The notes under the pieces were generated by a model. That model saw nothing but the letters and a program-made list of their open reading frames with translations. It was not told where the DNA came from and made no database searches. Shown piece by piece: positions 52,270 to 57,178 of a stretch of 64,000 nucleotides of DNA (the first letter of the stretch is position 1; each line of letters opens with the position of its first letter). The stretch lies in NCBI GenBank assembly GCA_900596015.1, contig UVIF01000012.1, positions 124,001-188,000 on the forward strand, written 5' to 3'. The stretch is from Pseudomonas viridiflava (GTDB lineage Bacteria; Pseudomonadota; Gammaproteobacteria; Pseudomonadales; Pseudomonadaceae). The position numbers and the translations under genes were made by a program.

Positions 52270-52309
52270 GGCGCGAGTCGCGTTACTGCCCAGGCGCGAG
52301 TCGCGTTAC
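52270..52309. promoter_or_regulatory. Duplicated palindromic operator-like motif upstream of the HutC-like gene
   Basis: A 17-base direct repeat GGCGCGAGTCGCGTTAC occurs at 52270-52286 and 52293-52309, 23 bases apart. Each copy contains the perfect palindrome CGCGA-G-TCGCG. The spacing is about two helical turns and the second copy ends 43 bases before the start codon. A binding site for the adjacent GntR-type repressor is a reasonable guess, but it does not resemble the TGTATATACA-like motif I associate with HutC. Confidence 0.5.
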
Positions 52310-52351
52310 AATGTCACTCGCTGTGCCCCACGAATCAATCAAGGAATTCCC

Positions 52352-53101
52352 GTGCCGACTCCGCCCGTTGTCCCTGCGCTGGCTGCCCAGATGGGCGAAA
52401 GTCCGGCGCCCTTGTATGCCCGCGTCAAACAGATGATCGCGGTGCAGATCCTCAACGGTACCTGGCCACCGCACTACCGGGTGCCCTCGGAAAGCGAGCT
52501 GGTCAACCAATTGGGCTTCAGCCGCATGACCATCAACCGCGCCTTGCGCGAGTTGACGGCCGAAGGCCTGTTGGTGCGCATGCAGGGCGTGGGGACTTTC
52601 GTGGCCGAGCCGAAAAGCCAGTCGGCGCTGTTCGAAGTGCACAACGTTGCCGACGAGATCGCCGCCCGCGGCCATCGTCACAGCAGCCGCCTGGTGCTGC
52701 TGGAAGAAGAGGCGGCCGGTGCGGAACGTGCTCTGATCCTGAGCATGCGCGAAGGCCAGCGAGTGTTTCACTCGATCATCGTCCACTACGAAAACGACAT
52801 CCCGGTGCAGATCGAGGACCGCTACGTCAACGCCCAGATCGCCCCGCAATACCTGCAGCAGGACTTCGTCGAAGAGACGCCGTATGCCTACCTGACCCGC
52901 GTGGCGCCGCTGACCGCCGGCGAGCATTTGGTAGAAGCCATGCTGGCCAACCCCAGTGAGTGCGAGCTGCTGCAGATCGAGCGCGGCGAACCCTGCCTGC
53001 TGATCCTGCGGCGCACCTGGTCGGGCAAGACGCCGGTCACGGCGGCGCGCTTGATCCACCCCGGTTCGCGCCATCGGCTGGAAGGGCGCTTCACCAAATA
53101 A
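52352..53101 (+). CDS. hutC: HutC-type GntR/UTRA family repressor
   Basis: 249 residues from the GTG at 52352, preceded by AAGGAATTCC; an ATG at 52391 is an alternative. Winged HTH at about residues 20-85 (RVPSESELVNQLGFSRMTINRALREL), UTRA ligand domain at about 100-245 ending PVTAARLIHPGSRHRLEGRF. It is very close to HutC, the urocanate-responsive repressor of histidine utilisation, but no hutU, H, I, G or F follows. It may be true HutC acting on hut genes elsewhere, or a paralogue dedicated to the importer downstream. Confidence 0.85.
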   Translation: MPTPPVVPALAAQMGESPAPLYARVKQMIAVQILNGTWPPHYRVPSESELVNQLGFSRMTINRALRELTAEGLLVRMQGVGTFVAEPKSQSALFEVHNVADEIAARGHRHSSRLVLLEEEAAGAERALILSMREGQRVFHSIIVHYENDIPVQIEDRYVNAQIAPQYLQQDFVEETPYAYLTRVAPLTAGEHLVEAMLANPSECELLQIERGEPCLLILRRTWSGKTPVTAARLIHPGSRHRLEGRFTK

Positions 53102-53164
53102 GCCTGCCTGCGGCACAAATACGCCAATCTGCCACACGTCGCGCAGAACAATGGCTCATCGCGC

Positions 53165-53190
53165 GGTCACAGCCATAGACCGCCGTGACC
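53165..53190. promoter_or_regulatory. Inverted repeat GGTCAC/GTGACC upstream of the binding-protein gene
   Basis: A perfect 6-base inverted repeat with a 14-base spacer lies 26 bases before the ATG at 53216. It could be an operator or part of a leader hairpin. It is short enough to arise by chance. Confidence 0.3.
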
Positions 53191-53215
53191 CATGGCCCAT
53201 GTGGAGCAGGACCCG

Positions 53216-55081: not shown

Positions 55082-55899
55082 ACGCGCCGAAGATCGAAGT
55101 GCGCAATGTCTACAAGGTGTTCGGCAAGCGCGAGAAAGAAGCGCTGGCGCTGAGTCAGCAAGGGCAAAGCAAGGAGCAGGTGCTGGCCGCTACCGGCTGC
55201 GTGGTCGGGGTCGACGACCTGTCGTTGTCGATCGCTGCAGGCGAGGTGTTCGTCATCATGGGGTTGTCCGGGTCGGGTAAGTCGACTCTGGTGCGGCATT
55301 TCAACCGGCTGGTAGATCCTTCCAGTGGCCAGATACTGGTGGATGGCGAGGATATCCTGCGTTACGACATGCCGGCGCTGCGCGCATTTCGCCGACGCAA
55401 GATCAGCATGGTGTTCCAGAGCTTCGGCCTGTTGCCGCACAAAAGCGTGCTGGACAACGTCGCCTATGGCCTCAAGGTGCGAGGCGAGAGCAAGGCGCTG
55501 TGCGAGGAGCGCGCGCAGCACTGGGTCGAAGCGGTGGGCCTCAATGGCTACGAACGTGCCTACCCACAGCAGCTCTCCGGCGGCATGCGCCAGCGCGTGG
55601 GCCTGGCGCGGGCATTGGCGGCGGATACCGACATCATTCTCATGGACGAGGCGTTCAGTGCCCTGGACCCCTTGATCCGCGCGGAAATGCAGGACCAGTT
55701 GCTGGAACTGCAGACCCGTCTGCACAAGACCATCGTATTCATCACCCACGATCTGGACGAGGCGCTTCGCCTGGGCAACCGGATTGCCATCCTCAAGGAT
55801 GGACGCTTGATCCAGGCCGGCACCGCCAGGGAAATTCTGCACAACCCGGCCGACGACTACGTCGACCGGTTCGTCCAGCGGCGCAGTGTCGCGATCTGA
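55078..55899 (+). CDS. ABC transporter ATPase, ProV/HutV-like
   Basis: 273 residues. Walker [10 protein letters not shown] at residues 62-70, Q-loop FQSFGLLPH near 113, signature LSGGM at 166-170 and Walker [13 protein letters not shown] near 186-197. It lacks the C-terminal CBS pair found in ProV (about 400 residues), so it is not likely to be an osmosensory betaine importer and is closer to the HutV type. It is translationally coupled to the permease. Confidence 0.92.
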
Positions 55900-55917
55900 A
55901 GCTCTGCGCGGGGTGTT

Positions 55918-55946
55918 TTCGGAAACGTCCGACAGACGTTTCTGAA
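55918..55946. promoter_or_regulatory. 29-bp inverted repeat between the ATPase and PheRS-like genes
   Basis: TTCGGAAACGT-CCGACAG-ACGTTTCTGAA is an inverted repeat with ten of eleven arm positions paired. It starts 19 bases after the ATPase stop and lies 87 bases before the next start. No T tract follows, so an operator seems more likely than a terminator. Confidence 0.5.
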
Positions 55947-55999
55947 TAACATCCCTTTCAGACTTTTCTGATTGTAGTCCCGCAATACCCTGCCTAGCG

Positions 56000-56033
56000 T
56001 GCAGGCATTCGCCTCGAACAAGGAATGCCTGCA
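56000..56033 (+). promoter_or_regulatory. Hairpin enclosing the ribosome-binding region of the PheRS-like gene
   Basis: TGCAGGCATTC (56000-56010) pairs perfectly with GAATGCCTGCA (56023-56033) around a 12-base loop. The AAGGA Shine-Dalgarno (56020-56024) lies at the loop edge, the whole spacer is in the stem, and the last paired base is the A of the start codon. In RNA this would restrict ribosome access. Confidence 0.6.
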
Positions 56034-57178
56034 TGCCCGTCACCAAGCACTATCTCAGCCATGAAGCGATACACAAGGCGCTGCGCATTGCCGACCTGAC
56101 CGACGCCTGCGAGCCGCCCCATGCCGTGCGCCTGCTGGTCAGGGACCTGCTCGCCGGCCTGGTGCGACGAGGCTGGCCCCTGGCCGAGGTGCACAAGGGA
56201 CCGCGGATCATCTCTGCCGTGGAAAACTTCCAGCTGTGCGGCGACGACCCCCAGGTGACGGATGAAGTCGGTAACCACAGCTGCTGGGTCGATGACGAAC
56301 TGTTGCTGCGCACCCAGACCAGCAGCGCGATCATCACCGGCCTGCAAGCGGCGGCGGCGCGTCGGGCACCAGGCGAAACCATCATGCTCGCTGCACCGGG
56401 CATCACCTTTCGTCGCGACATCCGCGATCGCTGGCATTGCGCCGAGCCGCACCAGATGGACATCTGGGTGCTGGGCGACGCCGCACTGGGCAATCGTCAG
56501 GAGCTGCTGCGGCTGGTCGGTGACGTGCTGGACATCGCCGTGCCGGGGCGAATGTGGGGGCACAGCTGCGGAGCCTGCGGTTTTACCCGCGATGGCCTCA
56601 ACATCAGCCTGGTGACCCGCCAGGCACCGGTGGACATCCTCGCCTGCGGCTGCATCTGCCCGGCGTTCCTGCAGCGTCTGGATGTCGATCCCCAAGCCCA
56701 TGGTGGTCTGGTTCTGCGCCTGGGGCTGGATCGCCTGGCGATGCTGCGCAAAGGCGTTCCGGACATCCGCCTGCTGCGCGATGGCCATCCCCAGGTGCAG
56801 GCGCAGATGGGCGACCTCAAGGCCTGGCAATCGCTGTACCGCCAGCCGGCGATCAGCCGTGACCTGTCGCTGGCGGTGGCACCGGGGTTGGGCATCGAGG
56901 ACATCACCGAGCAGGTCCTGCAGGTGGCCGGCTACCGTGCCAGCTGGATCGAGGAGCTGCACATACGCGGCTGCTGGCCGTTCGAGGAATTGCCTTCGCT
57001 GACCATCAAGCGCCTGGGCATCGTTCGCGGCCAGCACAACCTGGTGCTGCAGGTGGTGCTGCGCGACCACGCCCAATCCCTGACTGCGCAGCAGGCCGAC
57101 GGCCTGTACCGCGACATCCGCACGGCCTTGCACCAGGGCGTGCCGGGTGGCGCCTATCTGGTAGGGGAACGCTTGTGA
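56033..57178 (+). CDS. Single-chain phenylalanyl-tRNA synthetase-like protein of unknown substrate
   Basis: 381 residues. Residues 55-280 resemble the class II catalytic core of PheS: NFQL...CWVDDELLLRTQTSS (65-98), motif 2-like APGITFRRDI (121-130) with EPHQMD (138-143), CGCICPAFL (205-213) and motif 3 GLDRLAML (231-238, Arg234). Residues 270-370 resemble the FDX-ACB anticodon-binding domain of PheT (ISRDLSLAV; LVLQVVLRD). The PheS coiled coil and most of PheT are absent, so the layout is like mitochondrial PheRS. It has many cysteines, including HSCGACG. The housekeeping pheST is not here, so this is a paralogue, possibly what databases call a PheS-related mystery ligase (name from memory). 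Confidence 0.85.
   Translation: MPVTKHYLSHEAIHKALRIADLTDACEPPHAVRLLVRDLLAGLVRRGWPLAEVHKGPRIISAVENFQLCGDDPQVTDEVGNHSCWVDDELLLRTQTSSAIITGLQAAAARRAPGETIMLAAPGITFRRDIRDRWHCAEPHQMDIWVLGDAALGNRQELLRLVGDVLDIAVPGRMWGHSCGACGFTRDGLNISLVTRQAPVDILACGCICPAFLQRLDVDPQAHGGLVLRLGLDRLAMLRKGVPDIRLLRDGHPQVQAQMGDLKAWQSLYRQPAISRDLSLAVAPGLGIEDITEQVLQVAGYRASWIEELHIRGCWPFEELPSLTIKRLGIVRGQHNLVLQVVLRDHAQSLTAQQADGLYRDIRTALHQGVPGGAYLVGERL

Follow-up and report, generated by a model that had tools for sequence, protein, structure and literature searches.

An orphan, divergent SrmL ligase gene beside the remnant of a hut operon in Pseudomonas viridiflava

Within a stretch of 64,000 nucleotides from a Pseudomonas viridiflava contig (UVIF01000012.1, positions 124,001 to 188,000; hereafter the window), five co-directional open reading frames (ORFs) encode a HutC-type regulator of the GntR family, an OpuAC-type substrate-binding protein, the permease and the ATPase of an ATP-binding cassette (ABC) importer, and a 381-residue ligase of the PheS-related family SrmL (Table 1). 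To either side stand a blc-like lipocalin and a pip-like alpha/beta hydrolase. The locus is a composite, in which HutC and the importer are what remains of a hut operon and the ligase is an orphan and divergent SrmL. In Pseudomonas baltica (locus L012) the gene order is the same and the ligase is 97% identical. A preliminary description of the window had correctly recognized the five co-directional genes and the GntR/HutC regulator, whereas its view that they form one dedicated uptake-plus-ligase unit fails on the evidence that follows.

Table 1. Features of the locus in the window and of the loci compared with it (L numbers denote compared loci and their own coordinates)
Feature	Position	Strand	Basis or remark
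blc-like lipocalin, left border of hut region	51658..52227	+	PF08212; same left neighbour in intact hut loci
HutC, GntR/UTRA repressor, hut operon relic	52391..53101	+	TIGR02018, 307.6 bits vs cut-off 220; ORF open from 52208
OpuAC-type substrate-binding protein of hut importer	53192..54184	+	PF04069, 187.6 bits
ABC permease of hut importer	54230..55081	+	PF00528; choline/betaine-type models below their own cut-offs
ABC ATPase of hut importer	55078..55899	+	TIGR01186, 350.7 bits vs cut-off 326.6
Gap between importer and SrmL, 133 bp	55900..56032	.	neither HutC operator nor ORF for a peptide or CgnB-like protein seen
SrmL variant, 381 aa, PheS-like core plus FDX-ACB, remodelled amino-acid pocket	56033..57178	+	NF051887, fold, pocket comparison, omega
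pip-like alpha/beta hydrolase, right border of hut region	57269..58240	+	PF00561; adjoins hutG in intact hut loci, e.g. L126, L129
CgnB-like gene between hutG and pip, SrmL-less Pseudomonas	L149-L154, e.g. L150:12052-12972	-
CgnB-like gene	L155:9487-10419	-	preceded by the next feature
25-aa ORF ending FGYYPLTKW	L155:10504-10578	-
CgnB/CgnE-like gene	L156:9457-10359	-	preceded by the next feature
38-aa ORF ending Tyr-Trp	L156:10515-10628	-
37-38-aa ORF ending RECSCLFD, then radical SAM/SPASM protein and amidohydrolase	L064 and L058, upstream of SrmL	-

The ancestry of the first four genes can be read from their relatives. Of 149 Pseudomonas genomes sampled, 126 have homologs of the binding protein (E 1e-60 or better), and outside P. 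baltica the closest are 83–85% identical; 18 of the regions around them were fetched and 16 examined. In 12 of the 16 the importer triplet has a hutH-like lyase after it and, in 10 of those 12, the hutU family before it, whereas in the remaining four the binding protein is a paralogue with different neighbours. In one such region (L126) hutF, hutC, hutU, hutH, hutI and hutG are confirmed by family models; between the same borders the window keeps only hutC and the importer, and SrmL occupies the place from hutH to hutG. The window genes are thus orthologs standing in hut order, within the borders of intact hut loci, and they differ from the usual Pseudomonas operon in having neither hutU, hutH and hutI nor operators. 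Genome-wide searches covered hutH, hutI and hutU: hutH was found in neither the window genome nor that of P. baltica, the hutI matches in both were far below the cut-off, and hutU was absent from the window genome. It follows that histidine degradation by the usual route has probably been lost in both, and that HutC and the importer are the survivors of an ordinary hut operon after the loss of its catabolic genes.

The operator of HutC is TGTA-N2-TACA (PMC12977541). Two perfect sites of this form are present in each of two intact hut loci (L126 and L129) and none at the window locus or in that of P. baltica; the only site with one mismatch anywhere in the window lies far off, at 4456. A 12-bp operator pattern likewise found no match, the promoter scan returned no promoter, and terminator-like matches were near the shuffle level (5 against a mean of 3.3). 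HutC, which scores 349.3 bits against a second model, NF011575, below its cut-off of 424, has an omega (ratio of nonsynonymous to synonymous substitution rates) of 0.016 between the window and P. baltica, and since it is itself conserved it may serve other targets. These findings bear on the possibility that the five genes work as one regulated system for the uptake and ligation of an imported amino acid or amine, as had been proposed in the preliminary description. Their common direction, the gap of 133 bp and the identical order in P. baltica speak for such a system, but we judge it improbable because the importer and HutC are hut genes, no HutC operator is present, and neither is linked to SrmL in the 46 other Pseudomonas loci of its main clade.

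The fifth gene belongs to the NCBIfam family NF051887, "PheS-related mystery ligase SrmL", whose curated full-length cut-off of 300 it passes with 362.7 bits, and it shares the architecture of that family. Its PheS core is detected by PF01409 (57.7 vs 19.8 bits). The FDX-ACB part went undetected by Pfam, and in one viral SrmL it gave a weak match of 27.1 bits, under the cut-off of 31.1. An AlphaFold model (predicted local distance difference test score 85.6) aligns over 342 residues (model residues 1–375) with human mitochondrial phenylalanyl-tRNA synthetase (PheRS; Z 30.2, root-mean-square deviation (rmsd) 3.6; Foldseek E 7.2e-21), which bears out the earlier assignment of a PheS-like core fused to FDX-ACB. 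The VIA structural list for SrmL covers mainly residues 27–268, and families missing from it are not thereby excluded. The human enzyme (3cmq, 5mgv) is, like the window SrmL, a single chain of catalytic core plus FDX-ACB; it differs in that the two are only 17% identical and that the Phe-stacking positions are not preserved in SrmL. Between the window and P. baltica the gene shows 10 amino-acid and 38 synonymous codon differences (omega 0.080), so that it is a real gene under selection.

That this ligase might be an ordinary duplicate PheRS, as its resemblance to the single-chain mitochondrial enzyme could suggest, is very improbable. Its score against the PheS family model TIGR00468 is 50.2 bits, far below the cut-off of 237.45. 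In an alignment to Escherichia coli PheS, SrmL positions 182 and 184 face two Phe, the stacking residues of the phenylalanine pocket; these positions are H and Y in SrmL generally and C and F in the window. As to the probe of the pocket that the preliminary description had suggested, the structure model returns the fold of PheRS, and the sequence alignment C182 and F184 in place of those residues. Moreover, the only FDX-ACB (PF03147) match in the window genome is a 799-codon frame on another contig (C15), as expected for pheT, so that the housekeeping PheRS lies outside the window. On both counts, a ligase that is not an ordinary PheRS and a housekeeping pheST encoded elsewhere, the earlier account was accurate.

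The window protein also departs from its own family. The pocket was compared across 27 aligned SrmL, of which 23 come from alignment A1 and 4 were added; the viral-contig copies are not among them. The residues inspected in class II motifs 2 and 3 are retained throughout, as had been noted for the window copy, save that one plasmid copy has E for D233. In 25 of the 27, positions 182, 184, 201, 204, 227 and 229 read H, Y, E, E, A and G, where the window and P. baltica have C, F, D, A, V and R; at position 190, 22 copies carry E, 3 carry Q and these two carry N. All seven substitutions, at positions otherwise conserved (E or Q at 190), are confined to this pair; the signature that they break (H182, Y184, E/Q190, E201, E204, A227, G229) is a feature of the present analysis and not the curator's definition. 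Given the substitutions and the omega of 0.080, the window SrmL appears to be a variant under selection whose pocket has been rebuilt, and not a gene in decay. A pseudo-enzyme, or a protein in some unrelated new role, without partners and kept for binding rather than catalysis, is a possibility to which we give a minor though real share: seven changes at otherwise conserved positions favour it, and the preserved motif 2 and 3 residues together with the omega value tell against it.

Across genomes, SrmL scores above the cut-off in 23 of 249 Pseudomonas genomes, in 3 of the 369 genomes of a class-level sample and in 1 of the 398 of a phylum-level sample, the last being the window genome; elsewhere it is found in Falkowbacteria, cyanobacteria, two plasmids, a 635-kb phage and two viral contigs (a first viral scan, with the window protein as sole query, found no relative). 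One scan gave 54 loci: that of P. baltica, 46 main-clade Pseudomonas loci with ligases 49–56% identical to that of the window, and seven others. A gene immediately downstream was identified in 45 of the 46 (none was found in L040), and these genes fall into 21 different families; the clusters of the window's HutC, binding protein and permease occur in none of the 46. Among the loci examined, the window and P. baltica are the only ones in which the importer and HutC adjoin SrmL. The linkage expected by the preliminary description is hence no general property of SrmL, whose neighbours vary and without which hut genes occur in other Pseudomonas; in the 46 other loci SrmL is a roving gene. A shared bacterial tRNA partner was rejected too, only two of the 46 loci scanned having a tRNA gene (tRNA-Pro in L018, tRNA-Ser in L043).

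What loci at different sites do have in common is a stretch of about 1.4 kb upstream of SrmL on the opposite strand, which encodes a peptide of about 33 residues and a protein of about 308. Both are complete in 26 of the 46 main-clade loci, partial in 4 and absent in 15, with too little DNA in 1; these counts are of tblastn matches, as the codon-model gene caller missed most main-clade SrmL and performed poorly at the high-GC (guanine plus cytosine) locus L094. The peptide is short, lysine-rich and tryptophan-containing, and its common form ends NRITSGPENFGWAPLAWAHTEE. That it is coding is indicated by the 1314, 1007 and 5679 differences at codon positions 1, 2 and 3 among 32 distinct copies, and by ribosome-binding-like sequences ahead of many of its starts. 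For the larger protein neither Pfam nor NCBIfam gives a significant match; its fold resembles that of CgnB and CgnE (Foldseek E 2.3e-24; profile E 1.3e-21), with 293 residues aligned to CgnB (VIA Z 31.3, rmsd 2.8). In the sections of PMC10070186 used here, CgnB is the peptide-binding protein of the biosynthesis of crocagin, a ribosomally synthesized and post-translationally modified peptide (RiPP), and binds precursor peptides; six metal ligands of CgnB are named there, and the corresponding positions are invariant in 16 sequences.

The association extends to whole genomes: of the 249, 23 carry SrmL, 19 a CgnB-like gene and 11 both, against 1.75 expected (hypergeometric 1.5e-8 if both calls drew on the same genomes; relatedness among the species inflates counts of this kind). 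One of these 11, G058, has no more than a fragment of the CgnB-like gene. A search of 31 genomes for the peptide gave strong matches (E below 1e-8) in these same 11, and at the thresholds used neither peptide nor CgnB-like gene is present in the window genome. A parallel may be struck with the crocagin cluster, in that a protein with the CgnB fold stands beside a short peptide; the Pseudomonas cassette differs in including SrmL, no synthetase-like partner being named beside CgnA, CgnB and CgnE in those sections of PMC10070186, and the window differs from both in having no CgnB-like partner. The peptide-aminoacyl-tRNA ligases known as PEARLs offer a parallel in concept, an aminoacyl group being put at the service of a scaffold peptide, with the difference that SrmL has the PheRS fold. 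Apart from these, a Thermus plasmid carries a CgnB-like gene beside an annotated ABC transporter, with no SrmL annotated.

More distant contexts lead in two directions. In two Falkowbacteria loci (L064 and L058) SrmL is divergent from a conserved ORF of 37–38 codons, followed by a radical SAM/SPASM protein and an amidohydrolase, a setting that points to peptides. On the viral contig L158 (3351-5095) a 211-residue protein like histidyl-tRNA synthetase is followed directly by SrmL, with 15 tRNA genes within 9 kb, a setting that points to tRNA.

In light of this, we consider it slightly on the probable side that the locus holds, beside the hut remnant, an orphan member of a mobile family whose enzymes adenylate an amino acid other than phenylalanine, pass it to a tRNA, and thereby serve or protect against a crocagin-like peptide. 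SrmL would bind ATP through class II motifs 2 and 3 and make the adenylate, and the aminoacyl group would be passed on, most likely to a tRNA held by the FDX-ACB domain; the class II fold, the kept ATP-site motifs and FDX-ACB favour these steps. In cassette-bearing strains the reaction may serve the peptide product, as the cassette itself suggests, or protect against it, a function beyond the cassette being favoured by the persistence of SrmL alone. The window lineage would have lost the peptide and the CgnB-like gene and rebuilt the pocket, and with both changes the substrate of its SrmL has probably changed. A more specific form of this reading, in which SrmL is a single-chain PheRS-like synthetase dedicated to RiPPs that loads a non-phenylalanine, perhaps non-canonical amino acid onto a tRNA or straight onto a crocagin-like precursor, a RiPP chemistry without previous description, and was repurposed for another substrate in the window lineage after the loss of the peptide, we advance only tentatively.

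Several observations weigh against the reading that we prefer. The radical SAM protein of Falkowbacteria scores best against models of the heme type, all of them below cut-off; of the three viral stretches, that of L158 alone has tRNA genes, whereas L159 and the 635-kb phage have none; neither peptide nor CgnB-like gene stands beside the cyanobacterial, plasmid or 635-kb phage SrmL; and N190, D201, V227 and R229 of the window copy could mean lost catalysis. The 15 main-clade loci of the 46 in which SrmL is without peptide and CgnB-like gene belong here as well, since SrmL persists there under purifying selection (omega 0.05–0.10 in five pairs, a sixth, L051-L052, having no usable synonymous rate) and the cassette is thus not required for its function.

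These solitary copies also separate two alternatives, each of which we rate as rather unlikely. SrmL might be a direct ligase that adenylates an amino acid or a peptide C-terminus and joins it to the cassette peptide with no tRNA involved. The presence of a short, conserved peptide next to SrmL in two settings that are not related, and the binding of precursor peptides by CgnB-like proteins (PMC10070186), argue for this, but SrmL retains FDX-ACB, a tRNA-binding domain in PheRS, occurs alone in those 15 loci and lies in one virus among tRNA genes. Alternatively, SrmL could serve for protection, as a stand-in or decoy synthetase against the peptide product of the cassette or a similar toxin, which would account for its outlasting the producer genes. 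The solitary loci with their low omega fit this, as does the presence of SrmL in phages and on plasmids, in one case next to a gene for chloramphenicol efflux; on the other hand, its pocket differs from that of PheRS, so that it is no simple spare, and the peptide is without known toxin activity.

Literature searches turned up no paper on SrmL, which NCBI names a mystery ligase, and the cassette offers a lead to the function of the family in the form of a concrete set of partners (a peptide of about 33 residues, a CgnB-like protein and SrmL), for which natural SrmL copies without partners provide a contrast. If SrmL does act on the peptide, a tRNA-synthetase fold would join RiPP biosynthesis; if it protects the cell, it would be a mobile resistance synthetase. 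The window itself is plainer, half of the system once proposed for it being an eroded histidine operon.

The site of the window SrmL recurs in Pseudomonas that have no SrmL. Among eight genomes with a CgnB-like gene and no SrmL above cut-off, six carry that gene exactly between hutG and pip, the same junction that holds SrmL in the window, with no trace of peptide or SrmL seen in these six loci. An ancestral full cassette at this junction, split by different losses, would explain both the SrmL of the window and the CgnB-like copies. The two further genomes (G126 and G108) have short ORFs just upstream of the CgnB-like gene, ending FGYYPLTKW and ENAYW, and these ends recall the conserved Tyr-Trp end of crocagin precursors (PMC10070186). 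With its Tyr-Trp end, the 38-residue ORF of L156 is a candidate for a crocagin-like precursor in a genome without SrmL.

Two minor observations concern SrmL outside Pseudomonas. On the Glutamicibacter plasmid pGnB68 (L092) the gene stands beside an annotated Cmx/CmrA chloramphenicol efflux gene. In Calothrix (L059) an ORF of 62 codons about 3.9 kb upstream of SrmL closely resembles part of it, a likeness that suggests a second, broken copy of the gene.

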